64,000 bases of DNA from Elusimicrobiales bacterium (GTDB lineage Bacteria > Elusimicrobiota > Elusimicrobia > Elusimicrobiales > UBA9959): assembly GCA_028713125.1 (NCBI GenBank), contig JAQTOU010000003.1:328703-392702 (forward strand), written 5' to 3'. Below the pieces are notes generated by a model. The model was given only the letters and a program-made list of their open reading frames with translations, was not told the origin of the DNA and did no database searches. Shown in pieces: positions 16,753-42,575 of this stretch. Within the stretch, counting starts at the first letter, position 1, and every line of letters starts with the position of its first letter. A program made the translations under genes and the position numbers.

Positions 16753-16875
16753 CTGCCGAGGGGGCCGGAACGCAAAACACGTTCGGCCACACCGTGGCCT
16801 CACTCGGTATTCGCCCGCCGGGCTATGCAACCGGCGGGCTCAACGACGGTTTTGCTAACCCGGCCCCCTCGTCAG
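16753..16875. repeat. 105-bp multi-hairpin repeat, copy A (core 16762-16866)
   Basis: The core is identical to copy C and has six differences from copy B. It folds as an outer stem (GGGCCGG/CCGGCCC), a second stem GCAAAAC/GTTTTGC, and two internal hairpins at 16785-16799 (GGCCAC/GTGGCC) and 16813-16839 (GCCCGCCGG/CCGGCGGGC). The flanks extend the outer stem: bases 16753-16768 pair with 16860-16875 at 15 of 16 positions. It lies just after the secA stop and just before lnt. Confidence 0.9.
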
Positions 16876-16913
16876 CCCGCTAATTGCTTAAGGGCTTCCG
16901 GAAAAACTACAGG

Positions 16914-18419
16914 ATGTTGAAAAAAATTCCTCCCGCGCTTTTCCCTGTATTGACGGCGCTGCTGCTTATTCTCAGCTATCCCAAGTTTAACCAGGGGTGG
17001 CTGGCTTGGTTCGCGCTGGCGCCGCTTTCTTTTTACATACTCAAGTCTAAAACGTATAAAGCGGCGGCGGCCGGGGGGGCTGCCTGCGGCTTCCTGTTTT
17101 ATTCCGGGATCCTTTACTGGATCTATCCTACTATGCGGGCGGGCGGGGTAAGTCCGGCGGTTTCGGCGCTTGGGCTGGTCTTGCTTAGTCTTGTTCTTTC
17201 GGCCGAGTTCGCGCTGGTCGCGCTCTATGGCTTCCGGATAAAAAGGATAGGGGTGAAGCGGTGGCCTTATCTTTTCGCGCTGGGCTGGCTGCTTCTGGAG
17301 TACGGGAAGGTCTATTTAAATCTGAAGGCTGTCTGGTTCCCCTGGTTCATGCTGGGGTATACGCAATGGGACTATGCGCCGCTGATACAGATCGCTTCTG
17401 TTACGGGTGTTTATGGTTTAAGCGCGGCTTTGTGTTTGTCAGGGGCGCTTCTTGGTTCCTTGTTCGCGCTGGAGGCTTCGGTACTTAAAAAACTTCTACG
17501 CTTCAGCCCGGCTGCGCTGATTTTCGCGGGAATACTTCTCTTCGGGCGGCAGGAACTTGACCGGTCCGGGGATCTTCTTCCGGAGACGACGATAAAGGCC
17601 GCTCTGCTTCAGCCTTCCGTGGACCTTTACGCGAAGTGGGACGCCTCCCAGGCCGTGGACGTTAAAGCTAATATCGAGGGGCTGCTGGGGGAAGTTAAAG
17701 ACGCGGATTTGGTGGTCTGGCCGGAGAACGCTCTGCCCTGCTGGCTGAACGGGCCGGGCTGTTACAATTGGCTTAAAGCGGCGGTTTCATCGGGTACCGC
17801 TCCCGGGAATCTTGTCGGATCGGTTTCGAGGGACGGCGGCCAGTATGTCTCGGCTTTCCTGCTGGACGGGAAAGGCGCTATTACGGCTTCCTATAATAAG
17901 CGGCAGCTCGTGCCTTTCGGTGAATATGTGCCGTTCCGGGATCTTCTCGGCAGATATATAAAGCCGGTGGCAGCGCTGGGGGAATTCCTTCCCGGCGACC
18001 CGGAGCAGAAGCTGTTCGAGTTTAATGGGGCGAAGCTTGGAACCGCTATCTGCTACGAGTCTATCTTCCCGTACCTTTTCGCCGGGGATACCCGCGCCGG
18101 GGCCGGGCTTCTCGTCAATATAACCAATGACGGCTGGTACCTGGACACGGCCGCGCCCTACCAGCATTTTATAGCCAATATTTTCAGGGCGGTGGAGAGC
18201 CGGCGCACGGTCCTGCGGGCGGCTAATAACGGGATCTCGGCTATGATAGACCCCTGGGGCAGGGTGCAGGCGAAAACCCGGCTGAATGAGCGGACTGTCC
18301 TCTATGTTTCCGCTCCCGTTTACTCCGCGCAGGCCCTCTTCCCGCTTTACGGCTACTGGGCGGCTGTGGCGGCTCTGCTTATAGTATCGGCTTTCCTGAT
18401 CGCGGTTATCTTTCTTTGA
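16914..18419 (+). CDS. lnt: Apolipoprotein N-acyltransferase Lnt
   Basis: A 501-residue inner-membrane enzyme that adds the third acyl chain to outer-membrane lipoproteins. About eight hydrophobic segments precede a periplasmic nitrilase domain with the catalytic triad Glu271 (VVWPENALP), Lys329 (YNKRQLVPFGEY) and Cys380 (GTAICYESIFP), and a final membrane helix follows. I chose the ATG at 16914; a TTG ten codons earlier (16884) is also in frame, and neither has a good Shine-Dalgarno. The stop overlaps the next start as TGATG. Its presence supports a diderm cell with triacylated lipoproteins. Confidence 0.95.
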   Translation: MLKKIPPALFPVLTALLLILSYPKFNQGWLAWFALAPLSFYILKSKTYKAAAAGGAACGFLFYSGILYWIYPTMRAGGVSPAVSALGLVLLSLVLSAEFALVALYGFRIKRIGVKRWPYLFALGWLLLEYGKVYLNLKAVWFPWFMLGYTQWDYAPLIQIASVTGVYGLSAALCLSGALLGSLFALEASVLKKLLRFSPAALIFAGILLFGRQELDRSGDLLPETTIKAALLQPSVDLYAKWDASQAVDVKANIEGLLGEVKDADLVVWPENALPCWLNGPGCYNWLKAAVSSGTAPGNLVGSVSRDGGQYVSAFLLDGKGAITASYNKRQLVPFGEYVPFRDLLGRYIKPVAALGEFLPGDPEQKLFEFNGAKLGTAICYESIFPYLFAGDTRAGAGLLVNITNDGWYLDTAAPYQHFIANIFRAVESRRTVLRAANNGISAMIDPWGRVQAKTRLNERTVLYVSAPVYSAQALFPLYGYWAAVAALLIVSAFLIAVIFL

Positions 18420-19312
18420 TGAAAATAGTTTTTTCCAAATATTATACGGCGGTAAGCCCCGGGCACGTTTTCAGGGCGGACAAGTTCGAGGCCGCGCTGA
18501 AGCTTCTTTTGAAAGAGGGCGTGGTACTGAAAAAGGACGTGCTCGCGCCGGAGGAGCCTTCGAAAGCGGACCTGCTCCTGGCCCATAGCCCCGGCTGGGT
18601 TAATAAAAATCTGAACTTCAAATTCACCGCGGAAGACGGCGCGAAAGCGGAGCTGAAGATCACCCGCGGCGTGGCGCGCGCGCATTTGATGAACGTAGGC
18701 GGAACGATACTCGCGGCCCGGCTGGCCCTGGAAAACGGGATAGGCGTGAATTGCGGCGGCGGCTCCCACCACGCCTTTCATGACCACGGGGAAGGGTTCT
18801 GCCTTTTGAACGATATAGCGGTGGCCGTGAAAAAACTCCTGAAGGAGCGGCGGATAAAGCGCGCGATGGTGATAGACCTGGACGCGCACCAGGGCAACGG
18901 GACCGCCGCCATCTTCAGCGGAGATAAAAGAGTTTTTACCTTCTCCATGCACGGCGCCGGGACCTACCCGGAGAAAAAAGAAAAGAGCTCTTTGGATATC
19001 GGTCTGCGTCCCGGAACCGGGGACGCGGCGTATCTTTCTGCCCTCGGGCGGGAGCTGCCCCGGGCGCTGGATAAATTCGGGCCGGATCTTGCCGTCTATG
19101 TGGCGGGCGCGGACGTCTACAGGAACGACCTTTTGGGCGGGCTGGGGCTTACCGTGGAAGGGATAAAAAAGCGCGACGCTTTTGTCTTCGGTGAGTGCCG
19201 CGCGCGCGGAGTTCCGGCGGCGCTGGTACTCAGCGGCGGCTACGCGAAAAAATTTTCAGATACGGTCCGCATCCACGCGAACACGATAAAGACCGGGGCC
19301 CGCTTCGCCTGA
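18419..19312 (+). CDS. Histone deacetylase/acetoin-utilisation family amidohydrolase
   Basis: A 297-residue arginase-fold enzyme starting at an ATG that overlaps the lnt stop by 1 bp. Zinc and catalytic motifs are present: GGGSHHAFHDHGEGFCLLNDIAVA (tandem His), VIDLDAHQGNGTA (the DxH zinc ligands), FSMHGAGTYP and the late YVAGADVYRNDLLGGLGLT block (second Asp). In bacteria this family deacetylates small molecules or proteins such as acetylpolyamines or acetyl-CoA synthetase. Nothing in the neighbourhood fixes the substrate. Confidence 0.9.
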   Translation: MKIVFSKYYTAVSPGHVFRADKFEAALKLLLKEGVVLKKDVLAPEEPSKADLLLAHSPGWVNKNLNFKFTAEDGAKAELKITRGVARAHLMNVGGTILAARLALENGIGVNCGGGSHHAFHDHGEGFCLLNDIAVAVKKLLKERRIKRAMVIDLDAHQGNGTAAIFSGDKRVFTFSMHGAGTYPEKKEKSSLDIGLRPGTGDAAYLSALGRELPRALDKFGPDLAVYVAGADVYRNDLLGGLGLTVEGIKKRDAFVFGECRARGVPAALVLSGGYAKKFSDTVRIHANTIKTGARFA

Positions 19313-19334
19313 GGCCGGAAGCTCGGGGCGCGGC

Positions 19335-20702
19335 TCAGCCGCCCTTTTTGTTTTCGGGCGTTTTTTCTTCATAATATTTGCCGTAAAGCTTTACGCCGCA
19401 ATCGGGGCAGACGCCGTGCGAGAACTTGGCGTCGCTGTGCGCGGTCACGTAATGCTCCACGGTCTCCCATTCGCCCTTGTCGTTGCGGATCTTCTTGCAG
19501 GAGGCGCAGATCGGGATGAGCCCGCTCAGGTACTTTACCTGGGCCAGGGTCTCCTTCAGCTCGGCCAGCAGGGCTTCGCGCTTAGCCTGCTCCTGCTTGC
19601 GCTCGGAAATGTCGCGGACGGTGGCCTGCAGGAACACCTTGTCCCCCAGGTTCATGCGGGTAAGGAGCACGTCGGCGGGGAAATCCTCGCCGGTGATCCG
19701 CCTGTGCGTCCATTCGAAAAGGTTGGCCCCGCGGGCCAACGCCGCCGCTATCATCTCCCTGGCTTTTTCGGAAGAAAGCCTGCCGTCCGGCTGCCGCTCG
19801 GGGGACAGGTCCTGCGGCCCTTTCGAGATAAACTCGGTCTCGCTCCCGGCCCTGAACATGGCCAGCGTTGCGGTGTTCCCGGAAGTGAAGGCCCAGGAAG
19901 GCGGGGCCAGGGTCATAAGCGCGTCCTGGGAGGTTTCGAATAAATTCCGGTATTTATCCTCGCTTTCGCTCAGGTCTTTTTCAGACCGCTTGAGATGTTT
20001 ATAGGCGAGCAGGATGCCTAAAAGACCGGAGAGCCAGAGCAGGGCATGCCCTATTATCCAGTGCCGGCGCAATCCGCCCCCGATGGCGTTAAGGTCGCCA
20101 AGCGGAACTTCTACGCTGATGGCGCCGCGGACGCCACCAGGGCTTTCCTCTGCTGTGTGGCAGGAAAGGCAGGTCGCGTCCAGGCGGAAGGCGCGGATAA
20201 AGCGCACGCGGGAGCCGGTATGCAGGGATAAGGTTTCCTCCCGGCCGCTTTCGAAGCCTGCCAGGGCCGATCTTTCCCACTCGTCCGGAGCGTTGGATGG
20301 ATCTTTGGGCTTGCTTGATACGAGGCGGCCGTAGGGCAGCCCCTGTTTAGCCCTGGCCTCGGAAAGCTGGCGCATCGCGTAAGCGTGACTTATGAGAGAA
20401 AGACTCTGCCCGGACCTGGTTTTAATCTCCTGCGCCCGCGCGCCCAGGAAGGTGTCCGAAGGAGTGCTGCCGGCATTTGGCACGTAAATGCCGCCGTGGC
20501 CTATTATCCAGTTGCGGAAAGAGAGATCCATGCCCGCCGTGGTTTGCGCTTCTTCCTCCGCCTGCTTCATTATATTCTTTTGCTGCTCGCGGAGGCCTAA
20601 TGTCAGAGACATGGCGATAAGGACGGTCCAGAGAGAGACGGAGATGCCGGCGAGTTTGCCGATCTCTCTTGCGGGCGCGTTGGCAGGGGAAGGGGTGAGC
20701 AT
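19335..20702 (-). CDS. Membrane PAS sensor with single-haem CxxCH domain and no kinase
   Basis: A 455-residue protein. A first membrane segment (ISVSLWTVLIAMSLTLGL) is followed by a periplasmic domain of the Tll0287/DUF3365 type carrying one haem-attachment site CLSCH, then a second membrane helix (HALLWLSGLLGILLAYKHL). The cytoplasmic part is a PAS domain (SEDKYRNLFETSQDALM) and a tail with the pattern ICASCKKIRNDKGEWETVEHYV...FSHGVCPDCG that often ends PAS-containing bacterial regulators. No HisKA, GGDEF or other output is present. It may sense redox or NO and signal through a partner protein. Maturation needs a cytochrome c system outside the window. Confidence 0.75.
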   Translation of the reverse strand: MLTPSPANAPAREIGKLAGISVSLWTVLIAMSLTLGLREQQKNIMKQAEEEAQTTAGMDLSFRNWIIGHGGIYVPNAGSTPSDTFLGARAQEIKTRSGQSLSLISHAYAMRQLSEARAKQGLPYGRLVSSKPKDPSNAPDEWERSALAGFESGREETLSLHTGSRVRFIRAFRLDATCLSCHTAEESPGGVRGAISVEVPLGDLNAIGGGLRRHWIIGHALLWLSGLLGILLAYKHLKRSEKDLSESEDKYRNLFETSQDALMTLAPPSWAFTSGNTATLAMFRAGSETEFISKGPQDLSPERQPDGRLSSEKAREMIAAALARGANLFEWTHRRITGEDFPADVLLTRMNLGDKVFLQATVRDISERKQEQAKREALLAELKETLAQVKYLSGLIPICASCKKIRNDKGEWETVEHYVTAHSDAKFSHGVCPDCGVKLYGKYYEEKTPENKKGG

Positions 20703-20751
20703 GCCCTAATTCTATAAGTGTGACCGGCTATTGTCAAGGCGGCCTGAAAAT

Positions 20752-20780
20752 AAAAAACAGCCGGCTCCCGGCCGGCTGTT
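20752..20780 (-). terminator. Intrinsic terminator for the gene at 20801-21541
   Basis: Ten-base arms (AACAGCCGGC, 5-nt loop, GCCGGCTGTT), followed on the minus strand by a TTTTTATT run. Confidence 0.85.
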
Positions 20781-20800
20781 CCTTTTTGCGCGCCGCGCCT

Positions 20801-21541
20801 TCAGCGGGCGAGCTTGAACTTGAAGTTGTGGGAGCCGTTCACCGGGTCGGTAAGCCAGTTCCCGTTCACGGACACGGCGATTTCCTGCCTGAAAGTGTGG
20901 GTCCAGGCATGGTGGCCTTCGTAGATGCTCACTTCCGGCCCCTGGGCCTGGAAAGCGGTCCCGTTATAGGGCAGGTTCAGCTCCTTCGTTTCTTTAAGCG
21001 AGTCGGCCGAGCTGGCTGTGGCCTCGTAGTAGGTCATCAGCGCCACGCGCACTTTTTCGCTGCCGGTGAATTTCCGGCCGCCTACGGTTATCCAGAGGGG
21101 GTTCGCCATCATGGTCCCGCCCAGGTCCATGGGGGCGTAGTCTATTTTTATTTTGGTCCCGTCGGCAGCCTGCAGGGTCAGGTTCTTCCAGGCCAGGTCG
21201 GCTCGGTTCGTCTTGAAAGCCGGGGCAGGAAGGGGGCGGATTATATAGGAGGCGCACTGGGCGGCCGGCTCACCGGTGCTGAAGTCAGGCTTGATAGCCG
21301 GCTCTATAAGGATAGCGCCGCTCTGGCATTTGAAGTAGCACTTGTTATTCTTGAACCCGGTCATCACGCAGGTATCCAGCGTCGTCTGGACGGGCGGGGG
21401 GAAGGGATGCTGGTTATTTATCTGGTTGAGTATGGTCCCCGCGTCTATGGGCGGGAGCTGGGGGGCCCGGTCGGGGGCGTCCGCGGCCAGCAGCGGCGCG
21501 GCCATAGCAAGCAGGATAAGGAGGGGCGTAGCTTTTTTCAT
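20801..21541 (-). CDS. Secreted protein of unknown function
   Basis: A 246-residue protein. The start at 21541 is preceded by GGAGG and gives the signal peptide MKKATPLLILLAMAAPLLAA; an upstream in-frame ATG four codons earlier lacks these features. The mature protein has two cysteines close together (DTCVMTGFKNNKCYFKC) and several beta-rich stretches (DGTKIKIDYAPMDLGGTMMANPLWITVGGRKFTGSEKVRVALMTY). It ends YPVNGSHNFKF-like, suggesting a periplasmic or surface beta-sandwich. I do not recognise the family. It has its own terminator and is transcribed alone. Confidence 0.6.
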   Translation of the reverse strand: MKKATPLLILLAMAAPLLAADAPDRAPQLPPIDAGTILNQINNQHPFPPPVQTTLDTCVMTGFKNNKCYFKCQSGAILIEPAIKPDFSTGEPAAQCASYIIRPLPAPAFKTNRADLAWKNLTLQAADGTKIKIDYAPMDLGGTMMANPLWITVGGRKFTGSEKVRVALMTYYEATASSADSLKETKELNLPYNGTAFQAQGPEVSIYEGHHAWTHTFRQEIAVSVNGNWLTDPVNGSHNFKFKLAR

Positions 21542-21913
21542 GAGAACCTCCAAGACAAGTTACTTGTAGTCTAGAAAAAATACGCGCCCGGCTTTAGAGG
21601 CAAAGGGCCCCTGGAACAGGATTAATCGGCCCATCCGCGAGGGCCTACTTGGCCCGTCCATTAGACTAATGTCATAGGCCCTTTAGTCGAAGCCCCGTAA
21701 TAAATAAAAAAAAGGAATTTAATATTTTCGCTGAAAATATACATTTCTCCTATGAAGCCTTGACAAGTCCATGGGCCTTAAGGCCCAAAAAGCAATAGGC
21801 CTAAAGACTTTTACTTGACTAGGCCCTTTGGTCTTGATTATAATCAAGATAGAGATTAAACTCTAAGTGTAGCGCACACTACACAAGACCAAACCGCAGT
21901 ACGGGAGGAAGTA
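21542..21913. promoter_or_regulatory. Long control region dense in GGCC-centred motifs
   Basis: A 372-bp non-coding, AT-rich stretch between divergent genes. GGGCC/GGCCC/AGGCCT motifs recur at 21602-21610, 21628, 21641, 21651, 21675, 21772-21787, 21796-21803 and 21821. Two are palindromes: TGGGCCTTAAGGCCCA (21772-21787, perfect 16 bp) and TAGGCCTA. A 14-bp direct repeat TAGGCCCTTTRGTC occurs at 21675-21688 and 21820-21833. It probably binds a repressor or activator of the downstream protease gene. No small gene is visible. Confidence 0.7.
21815..21844 (+). promoter_or_regulatory. Sigma70-type promoter of the first C11 protease gene, overlapped by operators
   Basis: TTGACT at 21815-21820, an 18-bp spacer, and TATAAT at 21839-21844. 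One copy of the TAGGCCCTTTGGTC repeat fills much of the spacer. The -10 lies at the centre of the perfect 18-bp palindrome TCTTGATTATAATCAAGA (21832-21849). A further inverted repeat (GTGTAG, 6-nt gap, CTACAC) lies in the leader near 21868-21885. Confidence 0.75.
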
Positions 21914-23167
21914 ATGTTCAGGAAAGCAACCGCAGCGTTAGCGATAATCGCCGCAGTCTCCGCCCAGGTGTCAGCAGGCATCAACTTCGACACCAACAAT
22001 AACTCGACCCTGCAGGACCAGATAGCCAGCCTCGAACTGAGCGTCCCCGCTCCGGTCGCGGACAAGGCTTATTCCCCCAAGGTTGACAAAGAATGGACCA
22101 TAATGGTCTTCGTGAACGGCAAGAACAATCTTGAGCCGTATGCGCTTAAAGACATGAACGAGATGGAGATGATAGGCTCCTCCGACAAGGTCAACGTGGT
22201 AACCGAAGTGGGCCGCATCGCCGGCTACGACTCCACTGACGGCGACTGGAAGACCGCCCGCCGCTACCTTGTAAAGAAAGACAATGATATCAAGAAGATT
22301 ACTTCTCCTGTAGTGCAGGAGATCGCCAAGGTTGACATGGGCGACTGGAACCACCTGGTCGAATTCACCAAGTGGGCCCAGACCAACTACCCCGCCAAGC
22401 GCTACATGCTGATAGTCTGGAACCATGGCGCCGGCTGGATCAAGTCCCGCGGCATGAACGACCCCAAGGGCATCTCCTACGATGACCAGACCGGCAACCA
22501 CATCACCACCCCCCAGTTCGGGATGGCGATGAAGGCTATCGGCAAAATAGACGTGATCGGAACCGACGCCTGCCTCATGCAGATGCCGGAAGTGAACTAC
22601 GAGATCAAAGACTATGTGGACTATATAGTGGCCTCCGAAGAGACCGAACCCGGCGACGGTTATACCTATAACCTGATGCTCGGACCCCTCGTAGCGAAGC
22701 CCACCATGCTCGGCGCCGAACTCGGCAAACTGGCCGTGGACGCTTACTCCGACCATTACGGGACCCAGGATCACACTCAGAGCCTCGTGCTGGCCTCGGC
22801 CATGAACGGCTTCATCCCCGTAGTCAATAAATTCGTGGCCGCCGCGATGGCCGCCAACGAGAAAGCCCTGATCAAGACCGCCATGGGCAGCGCGCAGTCC
22901 TATGCCTATGCCGAGAACAAAGACCTGGTGCACTTCCTCAGCCTCTACGCCGCTTCCTCCAAGGACGCGAACGTTAAGGCGACGGCGAAAGCCCTGCAGG
23001 ATTATGTTACCGGAACCCTGGTTCTCCACAACCGCGTGAACAGCAACTACAGCGACTCACACGGCCTGGCGATCTATATGCCCAACTACACTAACTCCTC
23101 TTATGCCGAACTGGCCTGGTCCAGGGACGGGCAGTGGGACGAGTTCATCGGTTGGTACACTAAATAA
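21914..23167 (+). CDS. Secreted clostripain-family (C11) cysteine protease, paralogue 1
   Basis: A 417-residue protein with GGAGG before the ATG and a signal peptide (MFRKATAALAIIAAVSAQVSAG). The C11 caspase-like fold is shown by EWTIMVFVNGKNNLEPYALKDMNEMEMIGS, catalytic His171 in WNHGAGW and Cys220 in GTDACLMQM, followed by VASEETEPGDGYTY. Clostripains cleave after Arg or Lys and self-process. It shares its whole length and the GGCC-type upstream motifs with the next gene, but each has its own terminator. Target proteins are unknown. Confidence 0.9.
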   Translation: MFRKATAALAIIAAVSAQVSAGINFDTNNNSTLQDQIASLELSVPAPVADKAYSPKVDKEWTIMVFVNGKNNLEPYALKDMNEMEMIGSSDKVNVVTEVGRIAGYDSTDGDWKTARRYLVKKDNDIKKITSPVVQEIAKVDMGDWNHLVEFTKWAQTNYPAKRYMLIVWNHGAGWIKSRGMNDPKGISYDDQTGNHITTPQFGMAMKAIGKIDVIGTDACLMQMPEVNYEIKDYVDYIVASEETEPGDGYTYNLMLGPLVAKPTMLGAELGKLAVDAYSDHYGTQDHTQSLVLASAMNGFIPVVNKFVAAAMAANEKALIKTAMGSAQSYAYAENKDLVHFLSLYAASSKDANVKATAKALQDYVTGTLVLHNRVNSNYSDSHGLAIYMPNYTNSSYAELAWSRDGQWDEFIGWYTK

Positions 23168-23186
23168 GCTGTCAGACAGCTGAATC

Positions 23187-23221
23187 GGAGGGCCGGCTTA
23201 ACAGCCGGCCCTCCTTTTTTT
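23187..23221 (+). terminator. Intrinsic terminator after C11 paralogue 1
   Basis: Hairpin GGAGGGCCGGCT / AGCCGGCCCTCC with a 4-nt loop, followed by seven T residues. Confidence 0.9.
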
Positions 23222-23226
23222 GGGGC

Positions 23227-23244
23227 ATAGGCCCAAGGGCCTAT
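23227..23244. promoter_or_regulatory. GGCC palindrome upstream of C11 paralogue 2
   Basis: ATAGGCCCAAGGGCCTAT has perfect 8-bp arms around AA. It matches the motif family upstream of the first C11 gene. A weak promoter candidate (TTGTAG at 23267, 17-bp spacer, TAAACT at 23290) lies just downstream. Confidence 0.65.
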
Positions 23245-23337
23245 AAAACTAAGGGTCCCCTGTACCTTGTAGCTTATCTCCGGGCAGGCTAAACTATGTA
23301 TATGAAACGCAACATATGCAAAGTCCTGGAGGAATCC

Positions 23338-24666: not shown

Positions 24667-24680
24667 TAAGCGGATAAATA

Positions 24681-24716
24681 AAGAAAGAGCCGGCCTAACA
24701 GCCGGCTCTTTCTTTT
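24681..24716 (+). terminator. Intrinsic terminator after C11 paralogue 2
   Basis: Hairpin AAGAAAGAGCCGGC / GCCGGCTCTTTCTT with a CTAACA loop and a T-run. Confidence 0.9.
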
Positions 24717-24720
24717 TGGA

Positions 24721-24769
24721 AAAAGGGGACAGGCTACTTTATCCCGGATAAAGTAGCCTGTCCCCTTTT
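24721..24769. repeat. Perfect 49-bp palindrome of the GGGGACAG family
   Basis: Twenty-four-base arms (24721-24744 and 24746-24769) around a single C. The arm begins AAAAGGGGACAGGCTACTTT. It abuts the stop codon of the kinase gene to its right. Related half-sites occur at 48171-48191 and 48854-48874. Confidence 0.9.
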
Positions 24770-31152: not shown

Positions 31153-31168
31153 TGGCCGCTGTCTGTGA

Positions 31169-31540: not shown

Positions 31541-31627
31541 TTTAGTTTCCTCCAAAAGATTTTCTGCCTGCACACATAGTCTAGCAACACCCCCATTAAA
31601 GGAACCTTAGAACAACATTAAAAGATT

Positions 31628-33091
31628 CTAATGTTGAGGAGGGGGGAAGATCACGGTGAAGGTGGAGCCTTGGCCGGGGGGGCTTTCGGCTTTTATTTCG
31701 GCGCCGTGGGCGTCGGCTATGGATTTGGCTATGGCGAGGCCGAGGCCGAAGCCGGAGGAGCTGCGCGAGGAGTCGGCGCGGTAGAAGCGTTTGAAGATGT
31801 GCGGCAGGTCCCCGGCCGGTATGCCGGGGCCGCTGTCGGAGACGCTTACGGCCGGCCGCCCGGCCTCCATGGAGATATTGACCTTTATTTTGCCTCCGGG
31901 GCCGCCGTATTTCAGGGCATTGTCGAGCAGGTTTAAAAAAAGCCGGCCGAGCTGGCCCTGGTCCGCCTCGACTTCTATGGAGTCCGCCGCCCGGGACAGC
32001 TCGATGGAGGCCCCGGACTTTTCGGCCAGGCCGGAGAGGCTGCCGGCCGCGCCCCCCAGAAGCGTCTTCAGGTTAACGCGGGAGCGCTCGAGGCGAACTT
32101 CCCTGTTGTCGAAGCGGGCAAGGGTAAGGAGATCCCCGACGATCTTGGACATCTTCTCGGTCTCTTCCAGGTTGCTCTGAAGCACGGCGGTATATTCGCC
32201 TACGGAGCGGGCTTTCTTCAGCGCCACCTCCAGCTCGCCTTTCAGGATGGTCAGCGGCGTCTTCAGCTCGTGTGAAACGTCCTGGATGAAGCGCCGCTCC
32301 GAAAGGAAAGAATCCTCGAGGCGCGCCAACATAGCGTTGAAGAGGTCGGCCAGCTCGCGGATCTCGTCGCGGGTCTCCGGCGGCTTTATCCGCAGGCTCA
32401 GGTTCTCGGCCGTTATCTGGCGGAGGGTGCGCGCCATGTTCGCCACCGGCCGCAGCGCCACGCGCGCGAAGAACATGCCGAAAGCCCCCGTCAGCAGCAC
32501 TATCAGCGGAACCATGGCCGCCATCATCACGCGCAATTTTTTAAGCGCGAACTGGGTGTGGTAGGTAGAGCGGTAGGCCTGCACTATATAAACGGCTCCG
32601 CCGGTCCCGGAGGCCGGGGTGGCATAGGAGCGGTAGGTGGCTTCCGGTCCTTCTCCCTGGGAGATCTTGATCGTATCGTATACGGCATTGCCTTTCAGGG
32701 CGTCCTTCAGCGTGCGGTCCGGCAGTTCCGGCGCTCCGGCAGAGCCGCGCGAGTTCTCCAGCTCGGCCCCGGAGGCGTCGAGGATGCGCAGCTCGACGGC
32801 GGCCTGCTTCGGATCCTCGGTGTGCAGGCGCACCAGCTCGGGGGCTATCTTGAAGAAAGCGCCGCCTTTCGCCGCCGAAGCGGAATACCTGCCCACCTCT
32901 ATGCGCTCGGTCTCCAGGTAGGCCTCCAGCGCGTCGGCCACTCCCTCCGCCCGGACCGCCAGCAGCTGGTCCAGGTTCTCGTCCAGGCTTCTTTCCAGGT
33001 TATTGTAGACCACTACGCTGAAAAGGGCTAGCGTAACGGCCAGAGCCGCCGCGTACCAGAGAGTTATCCTGAACCTGACGGAATTGAACAT
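31628..33091 (-). CDS. Membrane sensor histidine kinase (EnvZ/CusS type)
   Basis: A 487-residue protein with two membrane helices (ITLWYAAALAVTLALFSVVVY and MMAAMVPLIVLLTGAFGMFFA) enclosing a ~150-residue periplasmic sensor. Then come HAMP (LRPVANMARTLRQITAENLSLRI), HisKA (DVSHELKTPLTILKGE) and HATPase (NLLDNALKYGG, DSGPGIPAGDLPHIFKRFYRADSSRSSSGFGLGLAIAKSI). It starts within the stop of the response regulator (TGATG), so the pair is translationally coupled. The linkage to uxs and ugd upstream suggests it reports on envelope or glycan state. Confidence 0.94.
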   Translation of the reverse strand: MFNSVRFRITLWYAAALAVTLALFSVVVYNNLERSLDENLDQLLAVRAEGVADALEAYLETERIEVGRYSASAAKGGAFFKIAPELVRLHTEDPKQAAVELRILDASGAELENSRGSAGAPELPDRTLKDALKGNAVYDTIKISQGEGPEATYRSYATPASGTGGAVYIVQAYRSTYHTQFALKKLRVMMAAMVPLIVLLTGAFGMFFARVALRPVANMARTLRQITAENLSLRIKPPETRDEIRELADLFNAMLARLEDSFLSERRFIQDVSHELKTPLTILKGELEVALKKARSVGEYTAVLQSNLEETEKMSKIVGDLLTLARFDNREVRLERSRVNLKTLLGGAAGSLSGLAEKSGASIELSRAADSIEVEADQGQLGRLFLNLLDNALKYGGPGGKIKVNISMEAGRPAVSVSDSGPGIPAGDLPHIFKRFYRADSSRSSSGFGLGLAIAKSIADAHGAEIKAESPPGQGSTFTVIFPPPQH

Positions 33092-33759: not shown

Positions 33760-33763
33760 GGGT

Positions 33764-34693: not shown

Positions 34694-34725
34694 GTGAAAA
34701 TCTCCAGGTCCTGAATATCTGTTTT

Positions 34726-34856
34726 GCGGCCGCCCTGTGGGCCGGAACGCAAAACGCGTTCGGCCACACCGTGGCCTCACTCCGTGTTCGCCCGCCGGGC
34801 TATGCAACCGGCGGGCTCTCCGAGGGTTTTGCTAACCCGGCCCGCAGGTCGGCCGC
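34726..34856. repeat. 105-bp multi-hairpin repeat, copy B (core 34739-34843)
   Basis: Same length, orientation on the + strand and hairpin layout as copies A and C, with six base differences. The outer stem extends to 20 bp: 34726-34745 pairs with 34837-34856 at 18 of 20 positions. The extension sequence is unlike that of the other copies. It lies between ugd and uxs, inside an apparent operon. Confidence 0.9.
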
Positions 34857-34868
34857 GGTCTGCCCGAT

Positions 34869-34945
34869 GATTCTGGATTTTCGACTTTCGATCTTCGATT
34901 CCCGATTCTCGATTCTCGACTCCCGATTCCCGACTCTCGATTTTT
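34869..34945. repeat. Heptamer tandem repeat (GAYTYYY), 11 units
   Basis: Eleven consecutive 7-bp units from GATTCTG through GACTTTC, GATTCCC, GATTCTC (twice) and GACTCTC to GATTTTT. The first two bases are GA in every unit while the rest varies among pyrimidines. The tract ends exactly at the base before the ugd stop codon. A short version is at 40580-40607. Confidence 0.85.
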
Positions 34946-36277: not shown

Positions 36278-36290
36278 GATGTAGCTCCGG

Positions 36291-37805
36291 TTATTTTATC
36301 TCGCTGCCCTTTTCCGGCTTGAGCTCATGCGCTTTGATCAGCTCGTGGGCGCGCCGTTTCTCCGACTTCCCTATGAAATAGATAGCCAGGAACATCAGGA
36401 CGAGGCCTATCCAGTCCTCTGTCTTGGGCGGCTTCTGGTCCTTTATAAGCCACCAGACCATTATGGTGGCGCCCGTGCCGGCGACCAGCGAGGTGAGGCG
36501 GTTGACCAGACCGGCGAAGGTGGCGGTGCGGCCCTTGAACATGAACAGGAACACCGAGAAGAAGGCCGCCATGCCGAAAGGTACACCGGAACCGAGCGCG
36601 AGCAGCCATTTCGGGGTGGGATTCTTGGCCGCGTCCGAGAACTGGTAGGCGAAAGTCTTCTTTACGGCGCTGACGGGCTTGTCCAGGCTGGCGGCAACTT
36701 CCTTCAGTTCCTCCGGCTTGGACTTGGGGTCGTCCAGCAGGGCCGCTGCGGAGGCCAGCGCCGCCCCGGTGGTTTCGCGCTGCGCCGGGGAGAACTTGGA
36801 AGCGTCGGAGAGCAGCAGGTCCTTGGCCCGTCGCGCCGAGCCGGCTAGGACTTCGCATTCAGGGGTCGAGCGGTATCTGTCCAGGCGCGCGGCTTCCGAC
36901 TTCCTCTGCGCGGCCTGGCTGGCCGGCGCGGCGGCCTGCGCCGGAGTGCTTTCGTCCGGCAGGAGGGGGAGCTGCGGCATGGCGGCGGGCCTGTTCATAA
37001 CCTGGAAGAAGATGAAGCCGGCCAGGAGCAGGGCGGTGGTGCTGGATATCTGCTCCACCGCGAAGAAGCCCTTGGTGTCGTAGACCGCGCCGGGCTTCCG
37101 GGTGTTCTTATAGTAGTTCATTATATAGATGCGGATGGTGTAGGCGACCAGGTAGAAAGTCAGGATGGTCATCGCCGCGGAGTTGCCGAGGAAGTCGAAA
37201 CTGCTCTTGTCGAAGACGAACAGCTGGCCGAAGAAGGCGGCGTAGTTGCCGGTGGCCTGGACCATCGCGGCGGCGCCTTTGAAGTTCAGCATCTGCAGCG
37301 CCACGGCGCAGAGAGCGATGACCACGGCGACGTTCTCTTCCCAGTAAACTTTTTTCTTCAATATGCCCTGGCGGATCTGCGCCTCGTCGATAAGGCGGCT
37401 GATCACGATGATGCTGGCCCGCATGATGATCATGGCCACCATGACGGAGATGGGCAGGGTGTACATCAGCGTGGTGGTGGGGATGACGATGCCGGTGCAG
37501 ATGCCGGAGGGTATGATGTAGAAGAACTCGCGGGGCATATTCATGCCCAGGAACTTTATTTTATCGGTGGAGTGGAATTTATACCAGCCCCAGATGATGA
37601 CCACGGCGTTGCAGATCAGCATCCCGGCGATGGTATTGTAGAAGGTATATTGTATGCCGCCGACGCCAAGGACTTTTTCGAAATATTTGGCCAGGAAGCC
37701 GGTGATCACGTAGAGGAAGAAATAGCTGAAGGAAAGCTGCAGCAGCCTTTCAGTCGTTCCTTCGTGGGTTTTTTGGGTAAATACGGTTTTAAGAGTTTTT
37801 ATCAT
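36291..37805 (-). CDS. Polytopic membrane protein, DMT/EamA-like, unknown function
   Basis: A 504-residue protein with about nine to ten hydrophobic segments. The first half (SYFFLYVITGFLAKYF, TFYNTIAGMLICNAVVIIWGWY, PTTTLMYTLPISVMVAMIIMRASIIVISRLIDE) resembles drug/metabolite or nucleotide-sugar transporter folds. A charged ~110-residue cytoplasmic insert rich in Ala, Ser and Lys (residues ~285-395) separates it from the last segments (WLLALGSGVPFGMAAFFSVFLFMF, LVLMFLAIYFIG). It is probably the first gene of the ugd-uxs operon. A nucleotide-sugar or glycan transporter is a reasonable guess, not shown. Confidence 0.65.
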   Translation of the reverse strand: MIKTLKTVFTQKTHEGTTERLLQLSFSYFFLYVITGFLAKYFEKVLGVGGIQYTFYNTIAGMLICNAVVIIWGWYKFHSTDKIKFLGMNMPREFFYIIPSGICTGIVIPTTTLMYTLPISVMVAMIIMRASIIVISRLIDEAQIRQGILKKKVYWEENVAVVIALCAVALQMLNFKGAAAMVQATGNYAAFFGQLFVFDKSSFDFLGNSAAMTILTFYLVAYTIRIYIMNYYKNTRKPGAVYDTKGFFAVEQISSTTALLLAGFIFFQVMNRPAAMPQLPLLPDESTPAQAAAPASQAAQRKSEAARLDRYRSTPECEVLAGSARRAKDLLLSDASKFSPAQRETTGAALASAAALLDDPKSKPEELKEVAASLDKPVSAVKKTFAYQFSDAAKNPTPKWLLALGSGVPFGMAAFFSVFLFMFKGRTATFAGLVNRLTSLVAGTGATIMVWWLIKDQKPPKTEDWIGLVLMFLAIYFIGKSEKRRAHELIKAHELKPEKGSEIK

Positions 37806-37858
37806 AATTTCAATTCAAGCCCGGGCACGATTTCCTTTTATATTATCATAAATAATAA

Positions 37859-37883
37859 GGGCCGCCTGCAAATCAGGCGGCCC
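37859..37883 (-). terminator. Probable terminator after the receiver gene at 37905-38321
   Basis: Ten-base arms GGGCCGCCTG / CAGGCGGCCC, followed on the minus strand by TTATTATTT. Confidence 0.65.
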
Positions 37884-37904
37884 GGGGATCCGGCTTCGGC
37901 CGGG

Positions 37905-38321
37905 TCAGTGCTTCGGGGCGCGTTTGCGCGAGAGTTCGGCGGCCTTCTTTATCTTGCCGACCAGCGCGTCCAGTTCAAAGGGTTTTACCAGGTAGTCCAT
38001 GGCGCCGAAGAGCAGAGCGTCGTTGAGGGTGGCGGCGTCGTTCAGGCCGCTTACGGCTATTATGGGGATATGGGCCGCGGCGTCGTGAGTGCGGATGTCC
38101 CCCATGAGGCTGATGCCGTCCACGCCGGGCATCATGATGTCCATGAGGATGACGTCGGGCATCTCTTCAGGCTTGGCGGCGGCGAAGAAGTCCCTGGCTT
38201 TCTTGGGGTCGACGAAGGTGCGCACCTCGCAGCCGGCCGTGGCGAGCCCCGTCTCGTAGATCTCGAGTATGGTTTCGTCGTCGTCGACCGCGGTCACTTT
38301 TATCCTGGGTTCTTCTGCCAT
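37905..38321 (-). CDS. Stand-alone receiver (CheY-like) protein
   Basis: A 138-residue single receiver: VTAVDDDETILEIYETGL, phospho-acceptor Asp in VILMDIMMPGVDG, and Lys in YLVKPFELDALVGKIKKA. There is no output domain. The short basic tail (SRKRAPKH) is unusual. It is transcribed alone, with no clear Shine-Dalgarno. It could take phosphate from the orphan kinases at 24.8-30.1 kb. Confidence 0.9.
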   Translation of the reverse strand: MAEEPRIKVTAVDDDETILEIYETGLATAGCEVRTFVDPKKARDFFAAAKPEEMPDVILMDIMMPGVDGISLMGDIRTHDAAAHIPIIAVSGLNDAATLNDALLFGAMDYLVKPFELDALVGKIKKAAELSRKRAPKH

Positions 38322-38392
38322 AGGTTTATTCTAACAAAAATACCGGTGTTTTTCCCGCCCCGCGCTTCGGCAGCGGCCGGGAGAGGCCGGGG

Positions 38393-39217
38393 CTATCGGC
38401 CGGCTTTTTCCGCGGCGGCCGGCTTTTTGGCGCCCTTCTTCTGGGCCGGCGCGGCCTGGGGCGCCTCTTTCCTGTCGGTTTCAAGCAGCTGGCACTTGAA
38501 AGTCCCGCGCGTGCTGGGCACGTAAAAAAGGGTCCTGAGGCCGTAAAGGCGGCGGCTGGAGATGAATTCCTGCAGTTCCTTAAGCTCCGCGGCCGTTTCG
38601 ATTGGGATCAGGCGGTGAGGTTCTTTTACGGCGGCCATCAGCGGCTTTATCGTCCGCAGGTCCTCGGTCTCTATGTTCTTCACTTCCCCGTCCACTTCCA
38701 CTTTTCCCCTGAAAGCGTCGAGCGCTTCGCCTTCCACCGTTTCGGCCCGCAGGAAAGAAAGGACTTTTTTTTCCTGCGGAAGAACGGACACGGCTTTCTT
38801 CACCTCGTTGAAGGCGTAGGAGAAGGCTTCGCCGAAATTATTGAGCGGGGCGACGGTGCGGGTGAGCTCGCCGCTGATATAGGCGGAGATCTTGAGCATG
38901 TCGCCGCGGTAGAAGACCATCTTGCTCTGCTTTACGTTCTGGGAGTTGATGATCTCGGAATTCTCGATCTCGCGGAAGAAATCTTTTACTAATTGCGGCT
39001 TTATGCTGCCGCGCCGGGTTATGACGCTTTTAGAGGTTTCTTCGCGCAGGATAGCCTGGCCGTCCTGGGCTACCTCCAGGTAATATTCCTGGCCGGTCTT
39101 TATGGCGGAAACCGTCATCCAGGCGGCCTTCGAACGCGCGCCCTGGCTGTAAGGCCTGAAGGCGGTCAGCGCGGCGGCGGAGGCGGCGAGCGCCGCCAGC
39201 AGCAGGAGCTTTTTCAT
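38393..39217 (-). CDS. Exported protein of unknown function in the DsbA-MauE operon
   Basis: A 274-residue protein with signal peptide MKKLLLLAALAASAAALTAF. The body is beta/alpha mixed (QEYYLEVAQDGQAILREETSKSVITRRGSIKPQLVKDFFREIENSEII, DFYRGDMLKISAYISGELTR-like) and ends in a low-complexity basic Ala/Lys/Pro tail (APAQKKGAKKPAAAEKAGR). The start overlaps the stop of the MauE-like gene by 4 bp, so it belongs to that operon. The single cysteine near the end argues against a disulfide substrate. No family recognised. Confidence 0.6.
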   Translation of the reverse strand: MKKLLLLAALAASAAALTAFRPYSQGARSKAAWMTVSAIKTGQEYYLEVAQDGQAILREETSKSVITRRGSIKPQLVKDFFREIENSEIINSQNVKQSKMVFYRGDMLKISAYISGELTRTVAPLNNFGEAFSYAFNEVKKAVSVLPQEKKVLSFLRAETVEGEALDAFRGKVEVDGEVKNIETEDLRTIKPLMAAVKEPHRLIPIETAAELKELQEFISSRRLYGLRTLFYVPSTRGTFKCQLLETDRKEAPQAAPAQKKGAKKPAAAEKAGR

Positions 39218-39672
39218 AGGGTTTCAGCCGCCTTGTCCGCGGACCAGGCGGAGCCGTATTTGAAGGCCGCCCAGGACAGCGCCAGGAAGACCAAATTCTG
39301 CGTGAATTCGCGGGCGATGGAGTTGCCGCCGCCGCTGCCGAAGCAGCCGCAGGAGGTGATAGGCAGGCCGCGGAGCCAGGCCTGGGCCAGCATCGCCTCG
39401 AAGCCGAGCAGCATGAGCCCGGAGAGGACGGCGTTGAGGCGCGTGAAAACGCCGGCGGCCAGAAGCAGGCCGGTCCAAAGCTCTATCCAGGGCATGACAT
39501 AGGCCGTCCAGAGCGAGAGTTGGGCGTTCAGGACGCGGTAGGTTTCTATGGCGTAGCCGAATTCCTCCACCGGGGCGAGGGCTTTCATCAGCCCGGCGTA
39601 GATGAGCACGCCGCCGACCGTGAGCCGCGCAAGGAGCCCCAATATATCCGCGGTTTCAGTTTTGCCGTTCAT
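39214..39672 (-). CDS. MauE/DoxX-family membrane protein
   Basis: A 152-residue protein with four hydrophobic segments (LARLTVGGVLIYAGLMKAL, WTAYVMPWIELWTGLLLAAGV, VLSGLMLLGFEAMLAQAWL, FTQNLVFLALSWAAFKYG). Between the third and fourth lies TSCGCFGSGGGNS, a CxC motif typical of MauE-type proteins thought to move electrons to or from periplasmic thiol oxidoreductases. It overlaps the DsbA-like gene upstream and the exported-protein gene downstream by 4 bp each. It probably recycles the DsbA-like protein. Confidence 0.85.
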   Translation of the reverse strand: MNGKTETADILGLLARLTVGGVLIYAGLMKALAPVEEFGYAIETYRVLNAQLSLWTAYVMPWIELWTGLLLAAGVFTRLNAVLSGLMLLGFEAMLAQAWLRGLPITSCGCFGSGGGNSIAREFTQNLVFLALSWAAFKYGSAWSADKAAETL

Positions 39673-40307
39673 GGTTTTGCCGCCCTGAGGATATTATCGA
39701 ACTTCCTGGCCTGGTCCACCAGCTGGCCGCCGCCCACGGCGCGCCTGCCGTTAATGAAGAAGGTGGGGGTCGCGTTCACACCCTTCAGGTCGCCCTCGGC
39801 TATATCCAGTTTCAGGCGCTTGAGGGTTTCAGGCGAGTCGGCGCAGGCAACTATTTTGGGCCAGTCCAGCTTCAGCTGGACGGCGTAAGCTTCGAACTCC
39901 TTCGGTTTTTCCTTGGCCTGGGCCCATTTCTCCTGGTTTTCGAACAACAGGTCCGCGTATTCCTTGAACTTGCCCTGCTCTCCGGCGCAGTCGGCGTAGG
40001 CCGCGGCGTGGAACGACCAGGGGTGGATATCCATCAGGGGGTAATGCTTGAAGCTTACTCGCAGGCCGGGTCCGTAGATCTTCATCATTTCGTCTATCTT
40101 CCCGGCGGCGTGGCGGCAGGCGGGGCAGGCGAAGTCGGTGTACTCATAGATCTGCACGGGGGCGGTTTTGGGCCCGAAGGTTCGGAAATCCGGGGAGGGC
40201 CGCTCGGGGCCTATATTGAACTGGCGGGCCAGCAGCACCGCTACGGTGGAGATAAAAACTGTCATTGCGGCCAAAGCGAGCAGGCGCGCGTTTTTGCGGT
40301 CTATCAT
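39669..40307 (-). CDS. Membrane-anchored DsbA-like thiol oxidoreductase (thioredoxin_4)
   Basis: A 212-residue protein anchored by one N-terminal helix (LLALAAMTVFISTVAVLLA). The thioredoxin fold has the redox pair in DFACPACRHAAGK (CPAC), a helical insert, and the cis-Pro loop in NATPTFFINGRRAVGG. It belongs to the DsbA/BdbD/ScsC-type family that forms or isomerises disulfides outside the inner membrane. The coupled MauE-like gene is the likely electron partner. No DsbB or VKOR is nearby. Confidence 0.88.
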   Translation of the reverse strand: MIDRKNARLLALAAMTVFISTVAVLLARQFNIGPERPSPDFRTFGPKTAPVQIYEYTDFACPACRHAAGKIDEMMKIYGPGLRVSFKHYPLMDIHPWSFHAAAYADCAGEQGKFKEYADLLFENQEKWAQAKEKPKEFEAYAVQLKLDWPKIVACADSPETLKRLKLDIAEGDLKGVNATPTFFINGRRAVGGGQLVDQARKFDNILRAAKP

Positions 40308-40340
40308 ATAAGAATTATACAGTAAGTCCCTCGTGGAAAT

Positions 40341-40577
40341 CTATTTTTTTATTTCCGGCGAGATGATCTTCACTATTTTGGCGGGGGAGGTGGCGCCTTT
40401 TATCAGCATTATTTTTTTTGCGTCTATGCCGAGCACGACCGAGAGCTGGCGCAGGGCGGAGGCGTTGGCCAGGCCGCGCTCCGCCGGGGACTTCGTCCAG
40501 ATCTCGTAAGCGTCGGGGGCCTTTTTAAAGACCTTGTCCCGCCTGGAGTCGGGGTGTACTTTGAGCTTTATGAACAT
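40341..40577 (-). CDS. DUF167/YggU-family protein
   Basis: A 78-residue protein. The ATG at 40577 opens MFIKLKVHPDSRRDKVFKKAPDAYEIWTKSPAERGLANASALRQLS, the usual start of this family; conserved features are the VHP..R pattern, PAERGLAN and a C-terminal IVKIISPE strand. A longer upstream reading runs through repeats and the gpmI end and is not credible. No Shine-Dalgarno is visible, and a heptamer repeat tract lies immediately upstream. Function of the family is unknown. Confidence 0.8.
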   Translation of the reverse strand: MFIKLKVHPDSRRDKVFKKAPDAYEIWTKSPAERGLANASALRQLSVVLGIDAKKIMLIKGATSPAKIVKIISPEIKK

Positions 40578-40579
40578 AA

Positions 40580-40607
40580 ATAAATCGAGGATCGAAAGTC
40601 GGAAATC
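40580..40607. repeat. Short heptamer tract (four units)
   Basis: ATAAATC, GAGGATC, GAAAGTC and GGAAATC on the + strand, which is the complement register of the GAYTYYY units at 34869-34945. It sits between gpmI and the DUF167 gene. Confidence 0.6.
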
Positions 40608-40654
40608 GAAACCGGCGGTCTGCGGAAGAGATTTCTCTCTGTGATCTTCGATCG

Positions 40655-42208
40655 TTACGCTATCAGCGATTTTGACGTCATGTCTTTGGGCTGCTCCAGG
40701 CCCATCACCTGCAGGACCGTGGGGGCGATGTCCGACAGTATGCCGTGGGGGCGCAGCTTCACTGTATCCGCGTCCTTCGCTATATAAATGAATTCCACCG
40801 GGTTGGTGGTGTGGGAGGTTTTTGGCATGTTTATCTTGTAGTCCCACATCTCCTCGGCGTTCCCGTGGTCGGAGCTGACCATGACGGTGTAGTTGTGCTT
40901 CAGCGCCGCGGCCACAAGCAGCTCTACGCTGGAGTCTGTCACTTCCACGGCTTTCACCGTGGCGGGGTAGATGCCGGTGTGGCCCACCATGTCGCAGTTG
41001 GCGAAGTTGACGACTATGAAGTCGTATTTTTCGGAGGTAATTTCCTTGACCGCGCGCTCACGGACCTGGGGGGCGTTCATCTCGGGATGCTCGCCGAAGC
41101 TGGAGGGGTCCCAAGTCCCTTTTATCTCCACCTGGTCCTCGTCCTTGTAGGGTTCGGTCCGCTTGCCGTTGAAGAAGGAGGTGACGTGCTTGAACTTCTG
41201 GGTCTCGGCGAGGCGCAGCTGCTTGAGGCCTCGTTCGGAGATGATCTGGCCCAGCAGATTGTCCATTCCGCCGCCCTCGTCCATAGGGGGAAGGGCGCTG
41301 AATTTGAACTCGTCGTAATAGCGGGTCAGGCCGCAATAAACCACGTCCGGTCTCACCCAGCGCTTGCCGGGATAGCTGTCCTCTACGAAGGCCTTGGTCA
41401 GTTCTATGGCGCGGTCCTGGCGGAAGTTGAAGTGGATCACCGAGTCGCCGTCCTGCATGCCGGCGTAATCGCCGATGATGGTGGGGGGGATGTACTCGTC
41501 GACGATGGGGAGGCCGTTGGGATTGGTGAGGCTGGCGTAAGCGTCGTTGATGGCGGCTTCCGCGGTTTCTGCCCTGGCGCCCGCGGCTTTGGTGATGGCA
41601 TTATAGGTCCGGTCCACGAGCTCCCATTTTTCGCCCCGGTCCATGGCGTAGTAGCGGCCCATTATGGTCGCGACCGAGGCTATTTCGACTTCTTTTATGA
41701 CCTCTTCCAGCATTTTGAGGAAAGAGAGAGCGCTGCGCGGGGGCGTGTCGCGGCCGTCGGCGAAGAAGTGGATGTAGACTTTTTTTATGCCGCGCTTTTT
41801 GGCTTCGCGCATAATGGCGTACATATGGTCCTGGTGGGCGTGCACGCCTTCGTCCTGGACGAGCCCCATCAGGTGCAGGGCGCTGCCTTTGGCGACGCAG
41901 TTGTCGAGGGCGGCTTTAAGGGCCGGCCGGCCGAAGAAGGTCCCGTCCTCTATCATATCCATGATGCGCTTGAGTTCCTGTATGACGATGCGCCCGGCGC
42001 CCATATTGAGGTGGCCGACTTCGGAGGAGCCCTGGTAGCCTTTGGGAAGGCCGACGGATTCGCCGGCGGGTTCGAGGACCGTGTTCGGGTATTGCTGCAG
42101 ATAGCGCTTCATGTTGGGCGTCTTCGCGTTGCGCACGGCGTTGAACTTGTCGGGCCTGTACATCCCCCAACCGTCCCTGACGATAAGAAGAACTTTTTTG
42201 TTGGCCAT
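40655..42208 (-). CDS. gpmI: 2,3-bisphosphoglycerate-independent phosphoglycerate mutase
   Basis: A 517-residue cytoplasmic glycolytic enzyme that interconverts 3- and 2-phosphoglycerate using two manganese ions. The N-terminus carries the metal Asp12 (IVRDGWG) and the phospho-acceptor Ser62 in GSSEVGHLNMGAGR. Later blocks include HFFADGRDTPP, GRYYAMDRGEKWELVDRTY, FNFRQDRAIELT and the second metal site NFANCDMVGHTG and SSDHGNAEEM. Length is normal. Copy C of the 105-bp repeat lies in its upstream region. Confidence 0.97.
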   Translation of the reverse strand: MANKKVLLIVRDGWGMYRPDKFNAVRNAKTPNMKRYLQQYPNTVLEPAGESVGLPKGYQGSSEVGHLNMGAGRIVIQELKRIMDMIEDGTFFGRPALKAALDNCVAKGSALHLMGLVQDEGVHAHQDHMYAIMREAKKRGIKKVYIHFFADGRDTPPRSALSFLKMLEEVIKEVEIASVATIMGRYYAMDRGEKWELVDRTYNAITKAAGARAETAEAAINDAYASLTNPNGLPIVDEYIPPTIIGDYAGMQDGDSVIHFNFRQDRAIELTKAFVEDSYPGKRWVRPDVVYCGLTRYYDEFKFSALPPMDEGGGMDNLLGQIISERGLKQLRLAETQKFKHVTSFFNGKRTEPYKDEDQVEIKGTWDPSSFGEHPEMNAPQVRERAVKEITSEKYDFIVVNFANCDMVGHTGIYPATVKAVEVTDSSVELLVAAALKHNYTVMVSSDHGNAEEMWDYKINMPKTSHTTNPVEFIYIAKDADTVKLRPHGILSDIAPTVLQVMGLEQPKDMTSKSLIA

Positions 42209-42575
42209 ATCATTGTCCTCAGGCTGAAGTATCGGTTGAAAAATCGGTGAGACTGCTTCCTATATTTTATGAAATATGGGAGGCTTTGGGTAAAGACCGC
42301 GTGTGGAGCGAAGCGACACAATTCAACTGTATCCAGCAGGATGCGAAGTCGGGGCCTACCGCGAGGGCCGGAACGCAAAACACGTTCGGCCACACCGTGG
42401 CCTCACTCGGTATTCGCCCGCCGGGCTATGCAACCGGCGGGCTCAACGACGGTTTTGCTAACCCGGCCCCCGCGGTCTCCCCTCCGGGAGCTGCTTCCAG
42501 ATTGACATTGTTGGTTATGTCTGCAAGAATATGACAGTAAGGCGGACCTGTACAGGCAAAGGGACGGGAATAAAC
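42209..42575. other. Divergent intergenic region between gpmI and the cyclase gene
   Basis: This 367-bp gap contains copy C of the 105-bp repeat and, closer to gpmI, an imperfect inverted repeat at 42259-42280 (CCTATATTT, 4-nt gap, AAATATGGG) that could be an operator. A short GTGT/ACAC stem lies near 42300-42320. No coding potential. Confidence 0.5.
42358..42476. repeat. 105-bp multi-hairpin repeat, copy C (core 42365-42469)
   Basis: The core is identical to copy A. The outer stem is extended by local sequence: 42358-42371 pairs with 42463-42476 at 13 of 14 positions. The added bases (ACCGCGA) differ from those at the other two sites. Confidence 0.9.

Follow-up and report, generated by a model that had tools for sequence, protein, structure and literature searches.

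The window analysed here is a 64,000-nucleotide stretch from the genome of an Elusimicrobiales bacterium, hereafter the source genome (GenBank assembly GCA_028713125.1, contig JAQTOU010000003.1, positions 328,703 to 392,702 of the forward strand), and it contains three copies, A, B, and C, of a hairpin-forming repeat. Copy A lies between secA(+) and lnt(+), copy B between two minus-strand genes, and copy C between iPGM(-) and a plus-strand gene. Each consists of a 105-bp core enclosed by a left and a right outer arm (Table 1). An earlier sequence-only reading of the window had correctly given the positions and gene contexts of the cores, the stems and two inner hairpins present in each, the identity of cores A and C (B is 94% identical, with six differences), and flanks that are complementary within each site and unrelated between sites. 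Its exact counts of flank pairs (15/16 at A, 18/20 at B, and 13/14 at C) were not reproduced: counted without gaps outward from the core edge, Watson-Crick pairs number 10 of 11 at A and 11 of 13, plus one G.T, at B, and the arms of C form 6 of 7 pairs from the core edge, followed by a CCT/CT internal loop and four G-C pairs. With moderate confidence, we interpret the element as a dispersed non-coding repeat, predicted to fold as a three-way junction, whose cores have likely been copied between resident elements while the arms stay with their site.

Table 1. Window coordinates of the parts of copies A, B, and C and of two sites that carry an element in G026, the closest genome.
Feature	Position	Strand	Remarks
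Copy A left outer arm (GGCTGCCGAGG)	16751..16761	+	10/11 pairs with 16867-16877; similar to G026 counterpart
Copy A 105-bp core	16762..16866	+	P1 inner stem, P2, P3 hairpin, P4 hairpin
Copy A core, P2 stem GCAAAAC/GTTTTGC	16772-16778 / 16849-16855	+	
Copy A core, P3 hairpin	16785-16799	+	
Copy A core, P4 hairpin	16813-16839	+	
Copy A right outer arm (CCTCGTCAGCC)	16867..16877	+	
Copy B left outer arm	34726..34738	+	11 Watson-Crick pairs plus one G.T of 13
Copy B 105-bp core	34739..34843	+	same gap in G026: element, opposite orientation
Copy B right outer arm	34844..34856	+	
Copy C left outer arm	42340..42364	+	alpha-frame end GATGCGAAGTCGGGG plus slot arm CCTACCGCGA
Copy C 105-bp core	42365..42469	+	identical to copy A core
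Copy C right outer arm	42470..42485	+	CCGCGGTCT plus frame CCCCTCC
Site X	31643..31643	.	without element here; G026 has full element plus truncated inverted partner
Site Y	40347..40347	.	without element here; G026 has inverted element pair, about 414 bp

The sequence-only reading had proposed that the genome and its relatives be searched for the core, and this search revealed a large family. A 20-base hairpin motif (up to 3 mismatches) recovered at least 61 copies in the source genome, where the reversed control gave 0 matches, and BLAST returned at least 40 near-full-length matches of 91-100% identity (the best 40 of 79 candidates were scored). Among the 61 genomes searched, matches occurred in 31 of 32 genomes of the genus and in 0 of 29 others. 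Many copies are surrounded by a recurrent frame, alpha (ACCGCGAGATGCGAAGTCGGGG...CCCCTCC; 32 matches in the source genome, 0 in the reversed control), whose slot carries different hairpin cargo (types I, Ib, II, and IV); branching is predicted for the ones that were folded. At L243 the slot holds a type I top within type II arms, forming the chimera L243/L034. A beta frame often follows alpha in inverted orientation some 45 bp on (judged by eye), and alpha and beta elements frequently form inverted pairs; solitary copies such as A exist. In copy C, the first part of the alpha frame (42295-42301) is separated from the frame end by a 38-bp insert. This insert (42302-42339, GTGGAGCGAAGCGACAC...) resembles a repetitive extragenic palindrome (REP) and is missing from the G026 counterpart, and similar copies or parts were noted by eye within other elements at L023, L036, L198, L244, and L245.

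The separate behavior of core and arms emerged from comparison with G026, the closest genome by lnt (92%) and iPGM (96%). About 397 kb of G026 was compared, in stretches chosen for holding matches, and seven sites were scored, namely those source-genome elements with a model-aligned G026 element at the same site; L031 (rearranged), L039, L235, and L244 fell outside the scoring. Results showed that the core was closer to a copy elsewhere in the source genome than to its G026 counterpart at 6 of the 7 sites (at L050 mainly through a short insert), whereas the arms were closer to the counterpart than to the core's best-matching copy at all seven, narrowly at B, and fitted the counterpart better than any of 47 other copies at five (Table 2). 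A and L032 show the split clearly, L023 more narrowly, and C in part; at L050 it is hardly present. At A, C, L032, and L023, the G026 counterparts hold a different core within arms like those of the source genome (at L023, type Ib in the source genome versus type II in G026), and the core of copy B lies in opposite orientation in the two genomes. As judged from these alignments, core and arms have different histories at several sites, and cores seemingly end up inside older arms by replacing the resident core. Assembly error is an unlikely source of the identical cores, since the two arms of every site match each other and G026 has collinear flanks.

Table 2. Core identity and arm score at the seven scored sites ("counterpart" is the G026 element at the same site; "best copy" is the best core match elsewhere in the source genome).
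Site	Core identity, counterpart	Core identity, best copy	Arm score, counterpart	Arm score, that same copy	Arm score, best of 47 others
A	0.69	1.00	32	10	16
C	0.89	1.00	28	12	42
B	0.84	1.00	16	13	17
L050	0.80	0.94	50	9	22
L042	0.98	0.95	49	20	20
L032	0.71	0.98	32	15	22
L023	0.78	0.99	37	10	35

The sequence-only reading had offered as its first option that a mobile core lands in the loops of palindromes already present, for example terminators, in which case empty sites might carry only the joined palindrome. The presence of the core within unrelated arms at A, B, and C, and of type I inside type II arms in the chimera L243/L034, would suit such an origin. G026 contig C8, the only contig compared end to end, contains by the model five source-genome element sites, of which four are shared and one, L011, is missing from G026; two further G026 sites, X and Y, are empty in the source genome. 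At the junctions of these three differing sites, the element's arms were joined in none, which speaks against insertion into existing palindromes. A palindrome does lie beside the X junction (CAACATTAGAATCTTTTAATGTTG), but it is AT-rich, unrelated to the element's arms, and whole in both species, with the element adjoining it rather than occupying its loop. The junction at Y has a 6-pair repeat across it, a level equalled by 26% of random points, and nothing at the L011 junction exceeds chance. Since a different core already occupies similar arms in G026 at A, C, L032, and L023, we consider palindrome insertion very unlikely. The AT-rich palindrome itself (window about 31619-31643) lies between two genes and is kept in several species.

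Mobility, which the sequence-only reading had drawn from the varied gene contexts, was borne out in part: the three presence/absence sites agree with it, whereas the secA-lnt position is an old one in the genus. In that gap, a strong model match (E below 1e-9) was found in 15 of 30 genus loci, with weak matches in three more (L179 starts inside lnt, and the match in L176 lies outside the gap), and a few further loci hold other types (by eye). A different, terminator-like hairpin replaces the element in the gap in four species (L159, L181, L182, and L183, by eye), and L160 (G006) has a very short gap (TAGGCTCCCCCGGCAGGCCGCGGAATTG), perhaps a deletion scar of the element. At site X, G002, G011, and G023 also have no element, G030 has a type IV hairpin, and remnants of the alpha-frame end persist in G021 (13 bases) and G003 (20 bases), all by eye. 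A recent insertion at Y was considered and set aside: other species carry elements there (L188, L191, and L202, by eye), making loss in the source genome as likely. Possible direct repeats surround the inserts at X (CAACA) and Y (TAT), two cases only, and none was seen at L011.

The predicted consensus comprises a basal stem (P1), an internal loop, a second stem (P2, GCAAAAC/GTTTTGC), and two hairpins (P3 and P4) that together form a three-way junction. A covariance model was built from 48 copies of the source genome. In the predicted fold, 97.7% of cells pair and 18 of 36 pairs are changed on both sides. Covariation was 0.289, compared with 0.078 in shuffles (0 of 500 as high) and at most 0.043 in slid structures, and it was 0.402 versus 0.107 in relatives (130 distinct of 133 matches, in an alignment fitted to the model). 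These values uphold the structured element with a covarying basal stem that the sequence-only reading had suggested; covariation alone does not prove that it is RNA. Arm complementarity across the 48 copies averaged 8.60 within a site and 5.02 between arms of different sites, while random 105-bp intervals (n=1905) had a mean of 4.07 and a maximum of 9. It was below 7 in 10 of the 48 copies, C included, and for the 25 copies that lack the recurrent CCTACC arm, a right arm taken from another site scored as well as the copy's own in 7.8% of cases.

Within the arms, segments that pair with each other are locked (normalised mutual information 0.83-1.0) and segments at different heights are less so (0.004-0.785); for the two commonest states, all four combinations occurred in 15 of 28 level pairs. 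Such reassortment between levels was rejected as sole proof of swapping, because recurrent compensatory mutation yields the same table. Covariation of this kind might also arise with no function at all, if the copies were neutral hairpins in which replication template switching copies one arm from the other. That process can create and maintain stems with multi-base compensatory change, as PMC8794818 describes, and, between inverted arms, can invert the spacer, according to PMC8604942; the rarity of wobble intermediates (33 G.T of 4521 cells on the reported strand) would fit it as well. However, the asymmetric internal loops and the loop letters, e.g., the ACC loop and the GC.TA.GCAA tip, are near-invariant, and arm correction alone would tend to erase them. 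Since the mismatch preference described below is moreover strand-specific, we regard a purely neutral origin as unlikely.

On the reported strand of the relatives, A.C mismatches outnumber G.T (91 vs 33) and C.T outnumber G.A (86 vs 16). The bias held when related copies were merged at 90% identity (A.C 75 vs G.T 33; C.T 77 vs G.A 15) and at 80% (50 vs 28, p 0.017; 61 vs 13). Read on the opposite strand, these mismatches become G.U and G.A, which are better tolerated, and the TC/TC loops that flank both hairpins in source-genome copies become tandem G.A. Energy predictions also gave the opposite strand the greater stability in 118 of the 130 rows from relatives (35 of their 38 clusters) and in 34 of 48 source-genome copies. 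The mean energy difference was -7.3 kcal/mol in relatives and -3.0 in source-genome copies; random 145-mers have a standard deviation of 7.8, so that only the consistency of the difference counts. Since both the kinds of mismatch and the predicted energies favor it, the strand opposite the reported one is likely the folded strand, whether as RNA or as single-stranded DNA. Integron attC sites, which belong to cassette arrays with an integrase, came into consideration because they also fold as one strand.

A structured RNA made from this opposite strand, with its fold under selection, copies spreading like other repeats, and covariation by ordinary compensatory mutation, would account for the mismatch bias, the predicted stability, and the tandem G.A, and also for the retention of the structure across genera that the model indicates. 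Single-stranded DNA would nevertheless give the same mismatch preference, and the energy difference lies inside the random spread. Rfam returned 0 families at the gathering score within the window, two weak matches around copy A falling far below the cut-off, and copies were found in all gene orientations: the upstream gene was co-directional in 61 of 99 cases, and convergent arrangements numbered 28 against 13 divergent (crude open reading frame calls, with copy A misjudged; 14 further copies were dropped at locus edges). Such an RNA also gives no reason for cores to resemble those of other sites when the arms keep to their own site. We therefore hold the RNA explanation to be possible, though somewhat unlikely.

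Under our favored interpretation, the exchange of cores between resident elements, overwriting of a core would occur by ectopic gene conversion or replication template switching and would be set off at the replication fork by a stalled or cleaved hairpin. The homology would come from GGAACGCAAAAC and GTTTTGCTAACC, two stretches often present in type I copies. After divergence of the arms, their complementarity would be kept up by template switching between them and/or by selection on the folded lower strand. The opposite orientation of the copy B core is an outcome that template switching between inverted arms can give, as PMC8604942 reports. New sites probably arise when single elements or inverted pairs transpose with the help of some enzyme.

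Several observations weigh against core exchange. The comparison covers seven sites in one species pair, in G026 stretches picked for holding matches, and at only 5 of the 7 are the arms closer to the counterpart than to all other copies. L042 is vertical for core and arms alike, the difference between L050 and its counterpart comes mainly from a short insert in the counterpart's P4, other alpha-frame copies have closer arms to C (42) than its counterpart has (28), and the arms of B fit nothing well, leaving the split unclear there. An element lost from a gap and later inserted there anew could look like core exchange, and the remnants in G021 and G003 suggest that at X the source genome lost the element. 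Recurrent compensatory mutation could produce the level reassortment, and a third combination also occurs in 3 of 8 same-level arm pairs. Gene conversion would have only a short homology to work with, about 12-15 bp per side. Finally, the hairpin nuclease SbcD (TIGR00619) scored above the cut-off in only 1 of 32 genus genomes and is therefore not named as the agent; some match was present in 27 of the 32, the rest being weak and mostly limited to the N-terminal third. A lack of this nuclease might let long hairpins persist.

A bolder version of core exchange, which we judge distinctly unlikely, is a hairpin-top mobile element in which an enzyme cuts across the folded stem and exchanges all that lies above between resident copies. 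If true, the family would have two components in the genome: a set of docking arms, and cores (among them types I, Ib, II, and IV) that circulate as a pool. Stem covariation commonly counts as strong evidence for a functional RNA, and here it is joined with apparent between-site exchange inside the stem. The family therefore offers a natural test of whether compensatory change originates in selection, in template switching that corrects the arms, or in the swapping of folded tops, and a set of markers, in about thirty related genomes, from which gene conversion between scattered hairpins could be read in sequence.

Beyond the genus, the covariance model under strict filters matched 37 of 294 phylum genomes: 22 of the genus, 12 of 24 listed others of the family (in four other genera), and 3 elsewhere with one weaker match each. 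Seven copies were fetched from the four sister genera; both outer ends (GTTCGCGGG...CCCGCTCCA) are common to four of them, and the other three differ. Viral contigs gave 0 exact matches to the hairpin-1 pattern. No published description of the repeat was found in the literature searched, whose scope excluded subscription papers. Among six pairs of half elements more than 160 bases apart, no gene was seen inside the loop, as an autonomous copy would have; five contain a second left half and one spans 197 bases (37 left halves without a right half within 6 kb were left out of this check).

The element behaves like a miniature interspersed hairpin repeat, yet it fails the tested defining features of REPs and their doublets forming hairpins (REPINs) and of miniature inverted-repeat transposable elements (MITEs). 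Like REPs and REPINs, it is non-coding and has many intergenic hairpin copies per genome, often as spaced inverted pairs. However, a REP unit is a hairpin of 20-40 bp (PMC3733652), whereas the unit here is a three-way junction of 105-145 nt whose core and arms have different histories; inverted pairs are common, as the REPIN doublet would have it, but solitary copies such as A occur. The Y1 transposase that partners REPs (RAYT) was rejected as a partner, with the element's motif within about 1.5 kb at 0 of 30 fetched loci, some of them cut by contig ends. PF01797 gave 86 matches in 27 of 32 genus genomes, and the five genomes with no match include G016 and G003, which have at least 12 and at least 14 element matches, respectively. 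The source genome's only PF01797 match among those listed, L296 (G000:C11:519591-519818), is surrounded by its own palindrome, CTATTGAGGTTGAGCCTCAATAG, which bears no relation to the element. Like MITEs, the element is small, non-coding, repeated, and polymorphic for presence; unlike them, its ends differ from site to site in the genus, with no constant terminal inverted repeats. The candidate target site duplications (CAACA at X, TAT at Y, and none seen at L011) are too few to call, and no parent transposon was seen in the half-pair check or at the Y1 loci.

Mitochondrial double-hairpin and repetitive hairpin elements are likewise multi-hairpin repeats scattered in intergenic DNA. Those of sponges include GC-rich ones, and PMC2800124 describes conserved stems with changes mainly in loops, some copies differing by a few complementary substitutions; by that account, the pattern of these organellar elements is nearly the opposite of the one found here. 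Template-switch (quasi-palindrome) correction would account for the matched arm changes and the spacer inversion (PMC8794818, PMC8604942), but it acts within one hairpin, whereas in this family a core also becomes matched to copies elsewhere. Elsewhere in the window, a degenerate run of short CGATTC/CGACTC-like repeats lies just downstream of copy B (34870-34945).

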